Assembly (NCBI RefSeq): GCF_021398735.1
Contig: NZ_CP090349.1
Coordinates: forward strand, 431,001-495,000
Direction of reading: 5' to 3'
DNA: 64,000 nucleotides
DNA from: Methylobacterium oryzae
Lineage (GTDB): Bacteria; Pseudomonadota; Alphaproteobacteria; Rhizobiales; Beijerinckiaceae
Under the pieces are notes generated by a model. That model was not told where the DNA came from. It saw only the letters and a list, made by a program, of their open reading frames with translations, and searched no databases. Position numbers and translations under genes: made by a program. Of this stretch, positions 18,887 to 49,653 are shown one piece after another (the first letter of the stretch is position 1; the number at the start of each line of letters is the position of its first letter).

Positions 18887-19885
18887 ATGAGCGGCACCCC
18901 TCTCCTGTCGATCGAGAACCTGCAGGTCCATTTCCGCACCCCCGACGGGGTGAATCGGGCGGTGGACGGGGTCTCGTTCGCGATCCAGTCGGGCGAGACC
19001 CTGGCGATCGTGGGCGAGTCCGGCTGCGGCAAGTCGGTGACCTCGATGTCGATCCTGCGGCTCCTGCCCGAGCCGCCGGCCCGCATCGCCGGCGCGATCA
19101 AGTTCGAGGGCAAGAACCTCCTCGACCTGCCGAACAGCGCCATGCGCAAGATCCGCGGCAACGACATCAGCGTGATCTTCCAGGAGCCGATGACCTCGCT
19201 GAACCCAGTGCTGACGGTCGGCCGCCAGATCGGCGAGACCCTGCGGCTGCACCAGGGGCTCGGCCGCCGGGAGGCCGAGGAGCGGGCCGTGGAGATGCTG
19301 ACGCTGGTCGGCATCCCCGAGCCGCGGCGCCGGGTGCGGGAATACCCGCACCAGCTCTCCGGCGGCATGCGCCAGCGGGTGATGATCGCCATCGCGCTCG
19401 CCTGCTCGCCGAAGCTCCTGATCGCCGACGAGCCGACCACGGCGCTGGACGTGACCATCCAGGCCCAGATCCTCGACCTGATGCGCGACCTGAAGGCCCG
19501 GGTCGGGGCCGCGATCATGCTGATCACCCACGATCTCGGCGTGGTGGCCGAGGTCGCCGACCGGGTGGTGGTGATGTATGCCGGCCGCAAGGTCGAGGAG
19601 GCGCCGGTCCGCGAGCTGTTCCGGTCGCCGCGCCACCCCTACACCCGCGGCCTGATGGGGGCGGTGCCGAAGCTCGGCGCCGTCGAGCACGGCGCCGACG
19701 CGCGGCTCGCCGAGATCCCCGGCATGGTCCCGAGCCTGAAGGGCCGGATCGAGGGCTGCGTCTTCGCCGGGCGCTGCCCGGACGTCACCGACCTGTGCCG
19801 CGCCTACGCGCCGGCCCTGGAGCCGAAGGCGCCGGGCCACCTCGCCGCCTGCCACTACGCGCCGAAGGACGCCCTCGCGGCATGA
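18887..19885 (+). CDS. ABC transporter ATP-binding protein, DppD type
   Basis: A 332-residue ATPase that powers the peptide importer from the cytoplasmic side. It has Walker A GESGCGKS, the Q-loop in [11 protein letters not shown], signature LSGGMRQR, Walker [13 protein letters not shown] and the H-loop ITHDLG. The C-terminal oligopeptide-transporter extension carries the [15 protein letters not shown] cysteines seen in DppD/OppD members with an iron-sulphur-like cluster. The start at MSGTPLL is preferred because of GAGGA eight bases upstream; an ATG at 18872, overlapping the previous stop, is the alternative. It overlaps the next gene by four bases (ATGA). Confidence 0.94.
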
Positions 19886-31659: not shown

Positions 31660-33192
31660 TCACTTCCACGACGCCGCGTAGAAGCGCGGCACCTCGTCGG
31701 GCTGGGCCGTGAAGGTCAGGTCCGACGTGAAGGCGTAGTTGGTCGAGTAGGAGAACATCGGCAGGGCGTAGGCCTGCGCGGCGATCCGCTGGAGCGCCTT
31801 GGCGTAGGCGGCCTTGCGCTTCTCGGGATCCATGGAGCTGTCGCCCTCCTGCAGGTCGGCGATCACCTGCGGATCCTTGGTCAGGTCCTCCTCGCCGCCG
31901 CGGAAATACACCCCGTCGAAGGCCGAGACGTCGAGCACCGAGAACGACCCCCAGGTCTGGTAGCCGATCGAGGTCTTGCCGGCCCGCAGCGCGTCGCGGA
32001 ACGCCGCGTAGCGCAGGTAGTTGAGCCGCGCCTTGATGCCGACGGCGCCGAGATAGCCGATCACCGCCTCGGCGTAGTCGCGCTCGCGATAGGCGCCGAG
32101 GTCGATCTCGAACCCGTTCGGGTAGCCGGCTTCCTTGAGCAGCGCCTTGGCCTTGGCGGGGTCGTAGGCGTAGCGCGGCACGCCCTGGTCGGTGCAGCCG
32201 AACTGGTCGACGAAGCACAGCGCGTTCATCACCCGCGAGGCGCCGCGCACGAGGTTGTCGACCATCGCCTTGCGGTCGATGGCGTAGGAGATCGCCTGCC
32301 GGACGCGCACGTCCTTGAGCGGCGAGTTCTCCTTCGCCCGGCCCAGCGTGTCGAACTGCAGGAACCCGACCCGCATCGTCTCGGAATTGAGGACCGTGAT
32401 GTTGGGCGCGGCGCGCAACTGCTCGGCTTGGTCGCTCGGCACCCGCCAGATCCAGTCGACGCCGCCGGTCATCAGCTCGGCCATCCGGCTCTCGCCGTCC
32501 GGGATGACGCGGAACTGCAGCTTGCCGATCTTCGGCTTACCCAGAGGGCTCTCGGCCCAGTACTTGTCGAACCGCTCCATGGAGACGCCGCGGCCGCTGT
32601 CGACCTTGGTGATCCGGTACGGGCCGCTGCCGACCGGCGCCTTGGCGAAACCGTCGAGGCCGACCTTCTTGAAGTAGTTGGCCGGGAAGATCGGGGTCGG
32701 GCCGGCGAGGTATTCCAGCGCCGCCGGGAACGGGGCCTTCAGGTGGATGCGCACGCTGTGCGGGCCGGTCACCTCCACCGACTTCATCCAGTCGACGTTC
32801 TGGCGGGTGACCGTGCGCGCTTCGGGGGTCAGCACGTAGTTGAACGTGAAGGCCACGTCCTCCGGCCCGAGCGGGTCGCCGTTGTGGAAGACCACGCCCT
32901 CGCGGATCGTGAGGTCGAGGGTCGTGTCGTCCGCCCATTTCCAAGCGGTCGCCAGGAACGGCTTGTAGGTGCCGTCCTTGGGATCCCGGTACAGCAGCGT
33001 GTCCCAGCAGTTCCGGGCCAGGATCACGCCCTCGCGGGCGCTGTTGTGATACGGGCTGACGTTCTCGGGCTCGCTGTCCGACGCGTAGACCAATGTGTCG
33101 TTGGCCTTGCCGGCCAGCGCCGGGTGGGCGGCGATCAGGGTCGCGAACGAGGCGGCCAGGGTGGCGGCTCGGGTGAGGGTCCGTAGCGGCAT
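31660..33192 (-). CDS. ABC transporter substrate-binding protein, dipeptide/oligopeptide family 5
   Basis: A 510-residue periplasmic binding protein with a Sec signal peptide (MPLRTLTRAATLAASFATLIAA, cleavage near ALAG). SBP_bac_5 hallmarks include LDLTIREGVVFHNGDPLGPEDV, GSGPYRITKVDSG and VRVRQAISYAIDRKAMVD. The ATG has GGAG six bases upstream; an in-frame extension to 33255 is rejected because it lacks these signals. It is the first gene of a cluster (binding protein, two permeases, M20 peptidase, fused ATPase) and is divergent from a LysR regulator 170 bases away. The ligand is probably a short or modified peptide. Confidence 0.93.
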   Translation of the reverse strand: MPLRTLTRAATLAASFATLIAAHPALAGKANDTLVYASDSEPENVSPYHNSAREGVILARNCWDTLLYRDPKDGTYKPFLATAWKWADDTTLDLTIREGVVFHNGDPLGPEDVAFTFNYVLTPEARTVTRQNVDWMKSVEVTGPHSVRIHLKAPFPAALEYLAGPTPIFPANYFKKVGLDGFAKAPVGSGPYRITKVDSGRGVSMERFDKYWAESPLGKPKIGKLQFRVIPDGESRMAELMTGGVDWIWRVPSDQAEQLRAAPNITVLNSETMRVGFLQFDTLGRAKENSPLKDVRVRQAISYAIDRKAMVDNLVRGASRVMNALCFVDQFGCTDQGVPRYAYDPAKAKALLKEAGYPNGFEIDLGAYRERDYAEAVIGYLGAVGIKARLNYLRYAAFRDALRAGKTSIGYQTWGSFSVLDVSAFDGVYFRGGEEDLTKDPQVIADLQEGDSSMDPEKRKAAYAKALQRIAAQAYALPMFSYSTNYAFTSDLTFTAQPDEVPRFYAASWK

Positions 33193-35690: not shown

Positions 35691-36830
35691 ATGCCGGCGG
35701 TCGCCGAGTCCCCGCAGAACGCCCGCCGGAATGCCGCGATGACGCCCACTCCCACGCCCACTCCCACGCCCACTCCCACGCTCACCCCCGACATCGCCGC
35801 GCGCTTCGCCGCCGTCGCCCTCGGCCATGTCGGCCGCGAATATCCGAACAAGCCGGGCCACGTCCTGGCCGGGCCGGCGGATGCCCGCACCCCCGCGGCC
35901 CTGCACCCGGCCTTTCACGGCAGCTACGACTGGCATTCCTGCGTCCACGGTACGTGGCTGCTGGCGCGGGTGCTGCGGCTGTTCCCGGACGGCCCGCAGG
36001 CCCCGGCGATCCGCGCCCGGCTCGACGCGCAGCTGACTCCCGCGACGGTGGCGGGGGAATGCGCCTACTTCGCCGCCCCGACCGCCCGGGGCTTCGAGCG
36101 GCCCTACGGCTGGGGCTGGCTGCTGAAGCTCGCCGACGCGCTCGCCGCGCTCCCCGAGCGCCGCTGGTCCGAGGCCCTGGCGCCGCTGGCCGCGGTGATC
36201 GTCCGGCGCTTCGCGGAGTTCCTGCCGGTGGCGTCCTACCCGGTGCGGGTCGGGACCCATTTCAACACCGCCTTCGCGCTGCGCCTGGCGGCCGATTACG
36301 CGGAGGGCGCGGGGGATGCCGGGCTGACCACTCTGCTGCACGACACCGCCGTCGGCTGGTACGGGGAGGACGCGGATTGCCCGGCCTGGGGCGAGCCCGG
36401 CGGCGACGACTTCCTCTCCTCGGCGCTGATCGAGGCGGAGTGCATGCGCCGGCTGCTGCCGCCCGCCCGCTTCGCGCCCTGGTTCGACCGGTTCCTGCCC
36501 GGTCTCGCGGCGTCCCGACCCGCGACCCTGTTCCGCCCCGCGGGCGTGACCGACTGCTCCGACGGGAAGATCGCCCATCTCGACGGGCTGAACCTCAGCC
36601 GCGCGTGGTGCTTCCGCGCGCTCGCCGCGTCCCTCGGCCCGGACGATCCCCGCCGGCCGCCGCTCCGCGCGGCCGCGGAGGCGCACCTCGCGGCCGGGCT
36701 CCCGCACGTCACCGGCGACTACATGGGCGAGCACTGGCTCGCGACCTTCGCGCTGCTGGCCCTCGAGGCCGGTGCCGAGACCGGTGCCGGGACCGTTGCT
36801 CTGGGCGAGGCCCAGGACGGCGGGAAGTAA
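35691..36830 (+). CDS. DUF2891 family protein
   Basis: A 379-residue protein of the DUF2891 family, which has a predicted alpha/alpha-toroid fold like glycoside-processing enzymes. Landmarks are HPAFHGSYDWHSCVHGTWLLARVLRLFPD near residue 70, YGWGWLLKLADAL, VGTHFNTAFALRLAADYA, and a C-terminal NLSRAWCFRAL plus GEHWLATFALLAL. No function has been established. A Thr-Pro tandem (12-base unit, three copies) lies near the N-terminus. A start at 35739 (MTPTPTP) is the alternative. No signal peptide is evident. It is transcribed away from cdh. Confidence 0.85.
   Translation: MPAVAESPQNARRNAAMTPTPTPTPTPTPTLTPDIAARFAAVALGHVGREYPNKPGHVLAGPADARTPAALHPAFHGSYDWHSCVHGTWLLARVLRLFPDGPQAPAIRARLDAQLTPATVAGECAYFAAPTARGFERPYGWGWLLKLADALAALPERRWSEALAPLAAVIVRRFAEFLPVASYPVRVGTHFNTAFALRLAADYAEGAGDAGLTTLLHDTAVGWYGEDADCPAWGEPGGDDFLSSALIEAECMRRLLPPARFAPWFDRFLPGLAASRPATLFRPAGVTDCSDGKIAHLDGLNLSRAWCFRALAASLGPDDPRRPPLRAAAEAHLAAGLPHVTGDYMGEHWLATFALLALEAGAETGAGTVALGEAQDGGK
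35742..35777 (+). repeat. 12-base tandem repeat encoding Thr-Pro
   Basis: Three perfect copies of ACGCCCACTCCC followed by a decayed fourth. The unit is a multiple of three, so copy-number change lengthens the TPTP stretch of the DUF2891 protein without shifting the frame. Confidence 0.8.
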
Positions 36831-36902: not shown

Positions 36903-36995
36903 AAAAAAAGGACCGCCCTCAGGAGAACGGTCCGGAAGTCTAGGGAGGAAACGCCCACGAGGGGCTGCAAGACAGCGACGCCGTCGCTGTCTTGC
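36903..36995 (-). ncRNA. candidate small RNA with anti-Shine-Dalgarno linker, copy B
   Basis: Read on the minus strand, about 93 nt. Hairpin 1 (36967-36995) is a 14-base-pair perfect inverted repeat, GCAAGACAGCGACG with its complement. Hairpin 2 is GCCC-5 nt-GGGC. The open linker is TTTCCTCCCTAGACTTC. A terminator GGACCG/CGGTCC (36910-36933) is followed by seven Ts (36903-36909). Aligned without gaps to copy C (49478-49567) through the linker, hairpin 1 shows three pairs changed on both sides (A-U to G-C twice, C-G to U-A). It begins seven bases past the stop of the small gene 37002-37307 on the same strand, so it may be processed from that transcript. Confidence 0.72.
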
Positions 36996-37001
36996 CTGCC
37001 G

Positions 37002-37307
37002 TCAACCCGACAGGGACGGCCTTGTTCCTGGCTCCGGCCCGCCGCGCGGCAGGGCCCGCCCGCCCGGGACCGCCGTGAGGCCGGCGGGGCGGCGCGGCTC
37101 GCCGGGGCCGAACTCGGCGCGGTAGGTCCGCTCCAGCGTCATGAGCCCCCGCAGGGGACCTTCGGCCAGATCGAGGAGCCGCGCGTCGCGCCAGCGCAGG
37201 GTGCGGCCGAGGCGGCGCCGGAACCAGCGCCCGCGCTCCTCCTCGACGAGCAGGACCAGCTTGCCGGTCCAGGTCCGGCGGAACCAGAAACGTCCGGTCA
37301 GCGTCAT
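37002..37307 (-). CDS. small hypothetical protein
   Basis: A 101-residue basic protein of unknown function. The first half, MTLTGRFWFRRTWTGKLVLLVEE followed by RWFRRRLGRTLRWRDARLLDLAEGPLR, looks constrained, with aromatic and Arg residues in strand-like spacing. The last 30 residues are Gly/Pro-rich and may be unconstrained. There is no membrane helix or signal. It ends seven bases before the candidate small RNA on the same strand. Confidence 0.55.
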   Translation of the reverse strand: MTLTGRFWFRRTWTGKLVLLVEEERGRWFRRRLGRTLRWRDARLLDLAEGPLRGLMTLERTYRAEFGPGEPRRPAGLTAVPGGRALPRGGPEPGTRPSLSG

Positions 37308-37407: not shown

Positions 37408-40248
37408 TTAATCGGAAGCGGGTTCCGGCCGTGCGCGGGCGTCCGGCTGCCCGCCCCGCCGCGCCGCCTCGGAGAGGACCTGGGCGAGCTGCTCGGCCGA
37501 GTAGGGCTTGCGCAGGAGGGCGAAACCGTGGGCGTCGTCCTCGGCCAGGACGTGGCTGTAGCCCGAGGTCAGCACCACCGGCAGGTCGGGGCGGCGGGTC
37601 CGGAGCTGCCGGGCGAGGGCGAAGCCGCCCATCCCCGGCATGACCACGTCGGAGAAGACCGCGTCGAACCGGTCCGGCGCCCGGTCGAGTTCGGCCAGCG
37701 CCTCCTCGGCGGATTTCGCCCAGACCGGCGCGTGGCCCAGATCCTCCAGGATCTGGGTGCAGAAGCGCCCGACCCCGAGATTGTCCTCCACGACGAGGAT
37801 GCACAGGCCCCGCCGCGGCTCCGCCTCCGGGCGGGCCTCGCGGTCGGCCTCGGACGCCGCGGCGGGCGCGGCGACCTGCGGCAGGTAGAGCGAGAAGGTC
37901 GTGCCGTGGCCGAGCGCGCTCGCCACGTCGATGTCGCCGCCCGACTGCTTGGCGAAGCCGATGACCTGGCTGAGGCCGAGGCCGGTGCCCTTGCCGACCT
38001 CCTTTGTTGTGAAGAACGGCTCGAAGATCCGTCCCAGATCCGCGTCCGGGATGCCGGCGCCGGTATCGGAGACCCGCACGGCCACGAACGGTCCCTTCGC
38101 GCCGGCATGCCCGCGGATCGGCGGCATCGGGCTATCGCCCTCCAGCCGCAGGGTCAGGTTGCCTTCCCCGTCCATGGCGTCGCGGGCGTTGACCGCCATG
38201 TTGATCAGCGCGGTCTCGAACTGGCTCTGGTCGGCGCGCACGTAGCGGGGCGTCGCCGGCAGGTCGATGGCCACGCGGATGCGCGCGCCGGTGACCGAAT
38301 CGAGCATGTCGGCGATGCTGCGCAGGCGCGCGCCGATGTCGAACACCTGGGGTTTCAGCGCCTGGCGCCGGGCGAAGGCGAGGAGCTGGCCGGTGAGCCT
38401 GGCCGCGCGGTCGACGGTGTCGGAGACGGCGTCGAGGTAGCGGCGCCGGCGCGTCTCGGCCAGGTCCGGCCGGCGCAGGAACTCCACGGACGACCGGATG
38501 ATGGTCAGGAGGTTGTTGAAGTCGTGCGCCACCCCGCCGGTGAGCTGGCCGATGGCCTCGAGCTTCTGCGACTGGCGCAGCGCCTCCTCGGCCTGGCGCT
38601 GCTCGGTGATGTCGCGCCCGAAGCCGTAGAACAGCCCGTCCTCCGGAACGACGGTCCAGAGCACCCGCCGCCGGTCGCCGGCGCGGGTCAGGCAGGCCAG
38701 TTCGATATCCTCGACCCGGCTGTCCGCGCAGAGCGGGCGCAGCGCCGCCTCGGCCGCCGCGCGCTCGGTGGGGGCGAGGAAGTCCAGGGCCGGCCGGCCG
38801 ACCGTCTCGGCCTCCGACCAGCCCAGCGCCCGGCTCCACGAGGGGTTCACCGACTGGACCCGCCCGGTCCGGTCCGAGACGAGCTTCAGCACCGGCGACA
38901 GCGTCCAGACCCGGTCGCGGTCGCGGGTCTGGGCGGCGACCTGCGCCTCCAGGTGCTCTGCCCGGGACTGGAGCAGGACCTCGTTCCGCTTCCGCTCGGA
39001 GACGTCGTGGGCGAAGACGTAGAACCCGTCGACGCGTCCGTCCGGGCCGCGGCGCGGGAGGTAGCGGGTGTCGGCGATCCGGGCCTGGCCGTTCGGGAAG
39101 GTCCAGGCCCATTCCTCGCGGACCTCCTGACCGGCGAGCGCCCGCTCGATGCCGGCGCGCCGGGCCTCGAACGCGCCGGGGCCGAGGAGGTCGCCGACGG
39201 TCCGCCCGACGACGGCGTCGGGCGCCTGGCCGGTCCAGGTCTCGTAGGCGGCGTTCGCGAACCGGTAGGTCAGGTCGCGGTCGATGAAGGCGATCAGGAC
39301 CGGCATCGCGTCCGCGACCAGCCGGAGTTCCGCCTCCCGGGCCCGGAGCGCGTTCTCGCTCCGGCGGCGCTCGGTGATGTCGTTGAACAGGATCGCGACG
39401 CGGTTCCGCGCCGGCCCGTCCACCCGGTAGGCGTGCACGTCGTACCAGCGGCCCAGCGCCGCGGCGGCCTGCTCGAATCGGACCGGCTCGCCGGTCAGGG
39501 CGACCCGGCCGTAGAGGTCGAACCAGTGCTGCTCGAGGTCGGGGGCGAGGTCCCGCATCCGGCGGCCCACCGGGGCCCGCAGGCCGGTCTGCCGCTCGAA
39601 GGCGGGGTTGACCTCCAGGAAGCGGTAGTCGACGGGCCGGTCGCCGTCGGCGAACTCCACCTCGATCAGGCAGAAGCCGGCATCGATGAAGGTGAACAGC
39701 GAGCGGTAGCGCTCCTCGTTCCGGCGCAGGGCCGCCTCGGCGTTCCGGGATTCCAGCTGCGTCATCACCGTCCGGGCGAGCGCCTTCAGGATGAAGAGCT
39801 GCTGGTCGGTCAGCGTGCGCGGGACGCGGTCGAGGACGCAGAGCGTCCCGATGGCCCAGCCGTCCGGCGTCACCAGGGGCACGCCGGCGTAGAAGCGCAG
39901 GTGCGGGTCGCCGGTCACGAGGGGGTTGGCGGCGCTCTCCGGCTCCGCGGTCAGGTCGGGCAGCACGAGGGCGCCGTCCGCGCGCATGGCCTCGGTGCAG
40001 AAGCCGAACGCGAGCGGCATCGCCCGCGCGGCGTGGCCGAACGCGGCCTTGATCCACTGCCGGTCGGCGTCGACGAAGTTGATGTGGGCCATCGGCGTGC
40101 CGCAGGCCTGGGCGGCCATCTCGGCGATCTCGTCGAACGCGCGCTCGGGCGGCGTGTCGAGGATCGCGTAGGCGCGCAGGGCGGCGAGCCGCTGGGGATG
40201 CTGGGGCTCGAAACCCGACGGTCGGGATACTGTCTCGTTCGGCGACAC
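37408..40248 (-). CDS. hybrid sensor histidine kinase (GAF-PAS-PAS-PAS-HisKA-HATPase-REC)
   Basis: A cytoplasmic hybrid kinase of about 946 residues. An N-terminal GAF domain (about 20-170) starts QRLAALRAYAILDTPPERAFDE. Three PAS domains follow, ending in DITERRR, DVSERKR and DITEQRQ. The HisKA domain has GGVAHDFNNLLT (His near 573). The ATPase domain has NMAVNARDAM, DTGAGIPD and GTGLGLSQVIGFA. A C-terminal receiver domain has its Asp in VFSDVVMPGMGG (near 865). The GTG at 40248 is chosen because the frame upstream to 40401 looks unconstrained, but the start is uncertain. No partner regulator is adjacent. Confidence 0.9.
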   Translation of the reverse strand: MSPNETVSRPSGFEPQHPQRLAALRAYAILDTPPERAFDEIAEMAAQACGTPMAHINFVDADRQWIKAAFGHAARAMPLAFGFCTEAMRADGALVLPDLTAEPESAANPLVTGDPHLRFYAGVPLVTPDGWAIGTLCVLDRVPRTLTDQQLFILKALARTVMTQLESRNAEAALRRNEERYRSLFTFIDAGFCLIEVEFADGDRPVDYRFLEVNPAFERQTGLRAPVGRRMRDLAPDLEQHWFDLYGRVALTGEPVRFEQAAAALGRWYDVHAYRVDGPARNRVAILFNDITERRRSENALRAREAELRLVADAMPVLIAFIDRDLTYRFANAAYETWTGQAPDAVVGRTVGDLLGPGAFEARRAGIERALAGQEVREEWAWTFPNGQARIADTRYLPRRGPDGRVDGFYVFAHDVSERKRNEVLLQSRAEHLEAQVAAQTRDRDRVWTLSPVLKLVSDRTGRVQSVNPSWSRALGWSEAETVGRPALDFLAPTERAAAEAALRPLCADSRVEDIELACLTRAGDRRRVLWTVVPEDGLFYGFGRDITEQRQAEEALRQSQKLEAIGQLTGGVAHDFNNLLTIIRSSVEFLRRPDLAETRRRRYLDAVSDTVDRAARLTGQLLAFARRQALKPQVFDIGARLRSIADMLDSVTGARIRVAIDLPATPRYVRADQSQFETALINMAVNARDAMDGEGNLTLRLEGDSPMPPIRGHAGAKGPFVAVRVSDTGAGIPDADLGRIFEPFFTTKEVGKGTGLGLSQVIGFAKQSGGDIDVASALGHGTTFSLYLPQVAAPAAASEADREARPEAEPRRGLCILVVEDNLGVGRFCTQILEDLGHAPVWAKSAEEALAELDRAPDRFDAVFSDVVMPGMGGFALARQLRTRRPDLPVVLTSGYSHVLAEDDAHGFALLRKPYSAEQLAQVLSEAARRGGQPDARARPEPASD

Positions 40249-40587
40249 GGAGCCGTCATAGCTCAAGCTTTCGCTTCCCCCTAGTGAAACTCTGCATCGC
40301 GCGTCCGGCGGCGGGACCAGGGCAAGCATTCCGCGATCGTTCAATACTAGACAGTCCCGCCGGATCATCGGTGGGGGTGCGATTTCACGCGCGCCGTTCA
40401 AGTCTTGCTGGTCCGGCCGACCGGGCTTCGGGCGCCCGCCGGGATCTCTTCCTGCCTCGCCCGTCGCGGGCCCCGCGAAGAGCTCGGGCGGGCCCCGCGC
40501 GGCGGCTGTGGATCGGATCGCCGCGGCCGGGAGCCCGCGGGGCCGGTGCGGCGTTGCCGGCTCACGAGGGATGGGTTCGGATCAGGC
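40249..40587. other. divergent intergenic region between sensor kinase and Mfd-type gene
   Basis: These 339 bases lie between two divergent genes. Open frames run through on both strands, but without family-conserved content. The region must hold both promoters; no strong -35/-10 pair or palindrome was seen. Confidence 0.4.
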
Positions 40588-49442: not shown

Positions 49443-49471
49443 TTGCATGCCGCAATGCGGTATCCTATCTT
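49443..49471 (+). promoter_or_regulatory. candidate promoter of small RNA copy C
   Basis: TTGCAT at 49443-49448 and TATCTT at 49466-49471, separated by 17 bases, place transcription initiation at about 49478, exactly the first base of hairpin 1 of the candidate RNA. Confidence 0.5.
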
Positions 49472-49477
49472 TGCACT

Positions 49478-49567
49478 GCGGGATGGCGATGGCGTCGCGA
49501 TCCCGCTGCCCTTCTTGGGCGTTTCCTCCCTAGACTTCGGGCCGCTCCTTCGGGAGTGGCCTTTTTT
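49478..49567 (+). ncRNA. candidate small RNA with anti-Shine-Dalgarno linker, copy C
   Basis: About 90 nt. Hairpin 1 (49478-49506) has a seven-base-pair outer stem GCGGGAT/ATCCCGC, a G-G mismatch and an inner GCGA/UCGC stem. Hairpin 2 is GCCC-5 nt-GGGC. The linker is TTTCCTCCCTAGACTTC (49522-49538). The terminator GGCCGCTCC-UUCG-GGAGUGGCC (49540-49561) is capped by a stable UUCG tetraloop and followed by six Ts. It is flanked by small hypothetical genes but has its own promoter candidate. The same architecture and identical linker occur on the other strand at 36903-36995. The exposed CCUCC is complementary to ribosome binding sites, suggesting an mRNA-targeting regulator. Confidence 0.75.
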
Positions 49568-49653
49568 CTTTCCGCCGGCCGACCCGCCGCGCGGACCGCG
49601 CCCCGACGTCTCGACCGCGCGGAACCCGGAGCTTGGCGGTACGTTTTTCCGCC

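Follow-up and report, generated by a model that had tools for sequence, protein, structure and literature searches.

Paralogous alpha-r8 (suhB, RF00519) small RNA genes in Methylobacterium oryzae and the predicted promoter types upstream of them

The closest described systems belong to the alpha-r8 small RNAs (sRNAs). MmgR, the only alpha-R8 sRNA of S. meliloti (RF00519), has an anti-Shine-Dalgarno (anti-SD) motif and takes several regulators, RpoD and RpoN being tabulated for it, NtrC activating it and AniA repressing it, according to the available sections of PMC7143759. PhaR (AniA) was bound to the mmgR promoter in EMSA (PMC12542648, excerpt). SisA-SisD of Caulobacter crescentus are four differently expressed paralogues sharing one 10-mer, and SisA represses a TonB-receptor mRNA through this 10-mer, which was proven to pair with the mRNA leader; the excerpts of PMC12559287 report control by the sponge CrfA and no common promoter motif for the siblings. 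The suhB element was already described in 2005 as an ncRNA occurring in multiple copies and equipped with a promoter and a terminator of its own (Genome Biology, PMC1273637), and in the sections of that article at hand only the short 5' helix was considered conserved. AbcR (alpha-r15) and NfeR1 (alpha-r14) resemble alpha-r8 in their CU-rich anti-SD motifs, several copies and transport mRNA targets (PMC7143759, in part), and differ in having two or three anti-SD motifs and other structures. In most species an alpha-r8 copy adjoins the gene of N-formylglutamate amidohydrolase (FGase).

The window analysed here is a stretch of 64,000 nucleotides of M. oryzae (contig NZ_CP090349.1, positions 431,001 to 495,000). 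It contains two such RNA loci on opposite strands, with the following features.

49478..49567, + strand: alpha-r8 sRNA of about 90 nt, copy with a PhaR-box, sigma-70-like promoter (RF00519, 72.6 bits; fold z -5.0)
49443..49471, + strand: sigma-70-like promoter TTGCAT-N17-TATCTT, predicted +1 at about 49478 (sequence pattern; same layout in orthologues)
49451..49459, no strand assigned: PhaR (AniA)-type box 1, CGCAATGCG, between -35 and -10 (YGCRNYGCR core match)
49472..49480, no strand assigned: PhaR-type box 2, TGCACTGCG, spanning the predicted +1 and 21 bp from box 1 (YGCRNYGCR core match)
49478..49506, + strand: hairpin 1 (H1), conserved at its tip GCGAYGGCGUCGC, variable and covarying in the lower stem (the Rfam model omits most of it)
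49508..49520, + strand: hairpin 2 (H2), GCCC/GGGC (within the RF00519 model)
49522..49531, + strand: anti-SD 10-mer UUUCCUCCCU, the common linker running on to 49538 (published alpha-R8 10-mer)
49539..49567, + strand: intrinsic terminator and U-tract (predicted fold)
36903..36995, - strand: alpha-r8 sRNA of about 93 nt, copy with a sigma-EcfG-type promoter (RF00519, 66.2 bits; fold z -5.5)
36995-36967, 36965-36953, 36951-36942 and 36933-36903, - strand: H1, H2, 10-mer and terminator with U-tract of the 36903 copy
37004..37027, - strand: sigma-EcfG-type promoter GAAC-N16-GGTT directly upstream of the 36903 copy (fits the M. extorquens consensus)

The covariance model of RF00519 matched both loci at full length (model positions 1-77 of 77), over 49501-49576 for the 49478 copy and 36972-36895 for the 36903 copy, against a cut-off of 41 bits. 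No other Rfam family exceeded its cut-off within the 64 kb. The 10-mer UUUCCUCCCU, unpaired in both predicted folds, was flanked by a short hairpin and the terminator, as in the definition of alpha-r8, and was the same as the one given for alpha-R8 in PMC12559287 (excerpt). Since the RF00519 matches and the published 10-mer agree, the two loci are paralogues of the known alpha-r8 sRNA (MmgR/SisA, Rfam suhB) and not a new RNA; the element of 2005 (PMC1273637, in part) is the same one. Each window RNA had one anti-SD motif, and the two or three that mark alpha-r14 and alpha-r15 were not found. The sequence-only reading, in which BjrC and the 'ar' families were only suggested for comparison with Rfam, had not recognised the family. 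Its description of a structured sRNA that occurs in several copies and exposes an anti-SD motif is supported by the sequence, and its coordinates and approximately 90-nt plan proved correct and agree with the predicted folds.

Among the neighbours inspected, an FGase gene was not found beside either window copy. Another copy in the genome (C1:4845086-4845161) lies 163 bp from the end of an FGase domain match at 4844227-4844922, and the window copies are still compatible with the family because extra paralogues located elsewhere are normal (PMC12559287, excerpt). A DUF2891 protein (35691-36830, +) and a PAS/GAF hybrid sensor kinase (37408-40401, -) are encoded near the 36903 copy. The gene neighbourhood was uninformative, as 5 of the 7 neighbouring ORFs tried had no Pfam match.

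Both copies were predicted to fold into H1 (12 and 13 bp), H2, a single-stranded linker and a U-tract terminator, with minimum free energies of -50.5 kcal/mol (49478) and -46.7 kcal/mol (36903), and none of 200 shuffles of either copy was equally stable. The copies aligned without gaps through the identical 17-nt linker UUUCCUCCCUAGACUUC, and the three compensatory pairs proposed for H1 from the letters alone were recovered: 49478 and 36903 differ by G-C/A-U twice and U-A/C-G once, changed on both sides. In addition, where H1 of the 49478 copy has a G.G mismatch, the 36903 copy has an A-U pair. Across 60 aligned Methylobacterium copies, 7 of 13 H1 pairs had double-sided changes and 92.9% of cells were paired, a count biased toward H1 because these 60 (of 74 references, chosen by the H1-tip pattern from 90 Methylobacterium copies) were selected for keeping an H1 of the same geometry. 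In the same 60 copies, none of five whole-structure measures was reached by any of 500 shuffles, pairing fell from 95.6% to 39-50% when the partner strand was shifted, and terminator covariation was also seen. The Rfam model starts inside the 3' arm of H1 and omits most of it; it thus misses a 5' hairpin with clear covariation. H1 and the promoter types are described here in addition to the short helix (H2) of 2005 (PMC1273637, in part). Hairpins were also seen by eye, uncounted, at the place of H1 in other genera of the order (L009 and L093 were dropped from this set, the motif being absent).

The overlap of PhaR box 2 with the base of H1, together with the omission of H1 from the Rfam model, could be taken to mean that H1 is a DNA palindrome serving as an operator and that the transcript begins later. 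This is quite improbable: a fixed operator would not change its sequence and still keep its pairing, as the lower stem does, the predicted +1 of the sigma-70-like and EcfG elements falls at H1, and the H1 tip is absent from all 18 copies whose sigma-54 promoter is positioned for H2. H1 is better read as RNA structure, and its tip, near-invariant in Methylobacterium above a lower stem that varies with compensation, may be a second interaction site. A 14-aa peptide with its AUG in the tip and its stop at CCCUAG would make the RNA dual-function, and the frame from ATGGCGT was present in 40 of 90 copies. It was missing in the other 50, ACG replaces AUG in the 36903 copy, residues 4-6 vary without constraint and the start codon is buried in a stem-loop. 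No conserved reading frame thus explains the tip, and the peptide was rejected as very improbable.

A promoter ending at hairpin 1 of the 49478 copy had been proposed from the sequence, and it corresponds to TTGCAT-N17-TATCTT, a layout that recurs in the orthologues. The pattern TTGN3-N16..18-TANNNT occurred only twice on the + strand of the window and never on the - strand; a stricter TTGACA/TATAAT scan found no promoter at 49478. The promoter of the 49478 copy has the two predicted PhaR sites and no EcfG pattern upstream; that of the 36903 copy lacks a PhaR box and has the EcfG pattern (37027-37004, -). Over the 64 kb as a whole, five EcfG patterns were found on both strands, PhaR-type 9-mers numbered 80 vs 116 in a Markov model, and pairs of boxes 2 vs 1.4, so that the pair alone is not rarer than chance. 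The case for the promoters rests on fixed positions over many copies, since motifs at a single locus are not above chance.

Three motifs were tested in windows at set distances from the Rfam start, with background windows from the same loci. The sigma-54 pattern was the textbook -24/-12 consensus. The PhaR core YGCRNYGCR was derived from the S. meliloti PhaR motif (PMC12542648, excerpt), and the sigma-EcfG consensus was GAAC-N16,17-C/GGTT as given for M. extorquens (PMC4814048, in part), the Sphingomonas form being GGAAC-N17-20-GTT (PMC6599016, in part). In a first set of 90 over-cut-off copies from 12 genomes (the 12 copies of genome G188, genus g95, were excluded from the class counts), PhaR box 1 was found in 43/90 copies vs 120/5490 background windows, box 2 in 42/90 vs 122/7506, EcfG in 9/90 vs 2/4374 and sigma-54 in 12/90 vs 77/8334; simple tests overstate these enrichments because the copies are not independent, the 90 forming 53 clusters of upstream similarity. 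A second set comprised 83 copies of eight further genomes with patterns and windows unchanged and was partly non-blind, 2 of the 83 (L019, L034) having been seen beforehand. It showed box 1 in 37/83 vs 107/4126 windows, box 2 in 45/83 vs 99/5646, EcfG in 10/83 vs 3/3295 and sigma-54 in 8/83 vs 55/6276. The enrichments defined on the 90 copies therefore held, recurring in the 83. The classes overlap in that 11 of 19 EcfG copies also had a PhaR box, which in these copies could be kept for H1 pairing instead. An EcfG-type and a PhaR-type copy lie 12.2-12.6 kb apart on opposite strands in six genomes (the own genome, G002, G007, G010, G026 and G044), and the EcfG copies of G007, G010, G026 and G044 carry a PhaR box at H1.

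These counts also bear on whether the copies are ordinary redundant alpha-r8 genes that add dosage, with promoter differences reflecting drift and no distinct inputs. The RNA body and 10-mer are common to the copies, multi-copy suhB has long been known (PMC1273637, in part), the Caulobacter siblings have no common promoter motif in the excerpts of PMC12559287, and no recognised motif was found in 13/90 and 16/83 copies (29/173). However, the motifs keep constant positions consistent with the predicted +1 and were found again in further genomes, and the EcfG-type/PhaR-type pair has kept its spacing in six genomes, so mere redundancy is considered unlikely.

The sigma-54 pattern was found at exactly -20/-21 in 18 of 173 copies, distributed over 17 of 20 genomes, with the predicted +1 at H2; one of 12 matches in the first set and one of 8 in the second lay off this position. 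None of the 18 had the H1 tip vs 118 of the 155 others, as expected if their transcripts begin at H2. An example outside the window is C1:4038738, with a predicted start at H2 and without H1. A block, TGGTTAACG, was present upstream in 10 of 10 aligned sigma-54 copies (L007, L160, L163, L166, L168, L172-L175 and L179) and within 200 bp in 14 of the 18, and it is a possible activator site. A simple dyad pattern for an NtrC site was found in 0 of these 10.

Taken together, the likely explanation is that the loci are alpha-r8 paralogues forming one silencing module that gained several transcriptional inputs via duplication. The RNA would start at H1 and end at its own terminator, and its unpaired UUUCCUCCCU would block translation by pairing with ribosome binding sites that resemble AGGGAGGAAA, the silenced mRNAs being probably for transport and carbon metabolism. 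Genes for Hfq and PhaR were both found in the genome, and the RNA may depend on Hfq. In Methylobacterium the duplicated gene would have kept the same output under different promoters. The 49478 type would be transcribed with sigma-70 and controlled by operators of the PHB-sensing repressor PhaR, located between -35 and -10 and across the +1. PHB sequesters PhaR and relieves repression (PMC12542648, excerpt), so this type would rise as PHB accumulates; the 36903 type, with a sigma-EcfG input, would rise in general stress. Through the different promoters, the cell could deploy this one module in response to carbon storage, to general stress or to a sigma-54 signal.

The broader reading, to which slightly better than even chances are given, is that Methylobacterium split a multi-input sRNA gene into paralogues with separate inputs (PHB/carbon through PhaR, stress through sigma-EcfG, and sigma-54) and one anti-SD output, the sigma-54 type being shorter and without H1 and further copies being on plasmids. 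MmgR and the window copies are both alpha-r8 sRNAs with an anti-SD motif (PMC7143759, in part). The PhaR site of MmgR was bound in EMSA (PMC12542648, excerpt), whereas the PhaR boxes of the 49478 copy are predicted, and the inputs that converge on MmgR appear in Methylobacterium to be spread over many paralogues. Methylobacterium, like Caulobacter with SisA-SisD, has multiple paralogues that share one 10-mer. Should the promoter types be real, the genus would offer a natural test of how duplicated sRNAs divide their inputs but retain a single target site, and silencing of one group of mRNAs would be linked both to carbon storage and to the general stress response. The family itself is known, the two loci are real and were correctly described in the sequence-only reading, and what deserves testing is how the paralogues are wired to three promoter types. 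As far as the literature searched shows, these promoter types are apparently new.

The own genome had nine matches at E <= 0.001, eight of them above cut-off. The ninth (L009, C1:3878560-3878628, -) scored 30.9 bits, below the threshold, lacked the anti-SD 10-mer and was excluded from the copy-by-copy sets, which hold over-cut-off matches only; it may be a decayed copy or a chance match. Further copies and conserved pairing, on which the sequence-only reading had made its claim depend, were both found: all 59 of 59 sampled Methylobacterium genomes (own included) had matches, 4-16 each. The 20 inspected copy by copy had 3-15 over cut-off each (173 in total), and UUUCCUCCCU was intact in 147 of the 173. 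A family-wide sample gave matches in 78 of 80 genomes, and an order-wide sample in 107 of 121, mostly one to three, with a maximum of six outside Methylobacterium; surveys of more than 40 genomes (Methylobacterium, order, family) used stricter filters, by which weak matches are lost. A second genus, g95 (G188 and G227), had 14 and 12 matches in its two genomes, and in the G188 copies other sequences replace the H1 tip, often as a short hairpin just before H2. Of the control genomes, Caulobacter was above cut-off as expected and the Thermus match was below it. The excess of Methylobacterium copies over the usual one to three of the order is apparently new as far as the searched literature shows, and the Methylobacterium counts may already be in print.

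A match to the 49478 copy was found in 38 of 72,556 plasmid records, 18 of the 38 being Methylobacterium by name. The many copies, some of them on plasmids, would also fit a dispersed repeat or mobile palindrome without sRNA function. This is very improbable, since most copies have promoter motifs plus a terminator, the family is order-wide and the experiments reported in the available portions of PMC7143759 and PMC12559287 show an sRNA in two genera. In the own genome, a plasmid-sized contig of 47 kb (C5) carries two of the eight over-cut-off copies, L008 at 19123-19196 (-) and L006 at 32715-32792 (+).

The pattern GGGAGGA-N4-11-ATG occurred 119 times in the genome vs 28 for the reversed pattern, which is no proof of targeting because these are mostly ordinary Shine-Dalgarno sites. 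Among the matches listed (100 of 119), at least 26 had GGGAGGAA, one of which was the reverse strand of an alpha-r8 copy. The remaining 25 sites were inspected and 19 of their frames compared with Pfam, the six omitted being short frames and one antisense-looking frame. Among the matches listed, at least 3 of the 25 sites had GGGAGGAAA, two before Peripla_BP_6 proteins and one before a glyoxalase-superfamily protein; other inspected sites precede formate-tetrahydrofolate ligase, two MFS carriers, a CitMHS carrier and an NMT1-like protein. By complementarity only, these downstream genes are candidate targets. For a CrfA-like sponge, the one pattern tried was the exact complement AGGGAGGAAA, which occurred nine times in the genome, seven of these being alpha-r8 copies read on the opposite strand; around the remaining two no obvious small RNA was seen by eye, and a CrfA-type sponge was not recognised with this pattern. 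Finally, a further EcfG-type pattern, GAAC-N16-CGTT, was located at 49622-49645 (+), between the 49478 RNA and an ORF starting at about 49654, and is possibly the promoter of this ORF or a chance occurrence.
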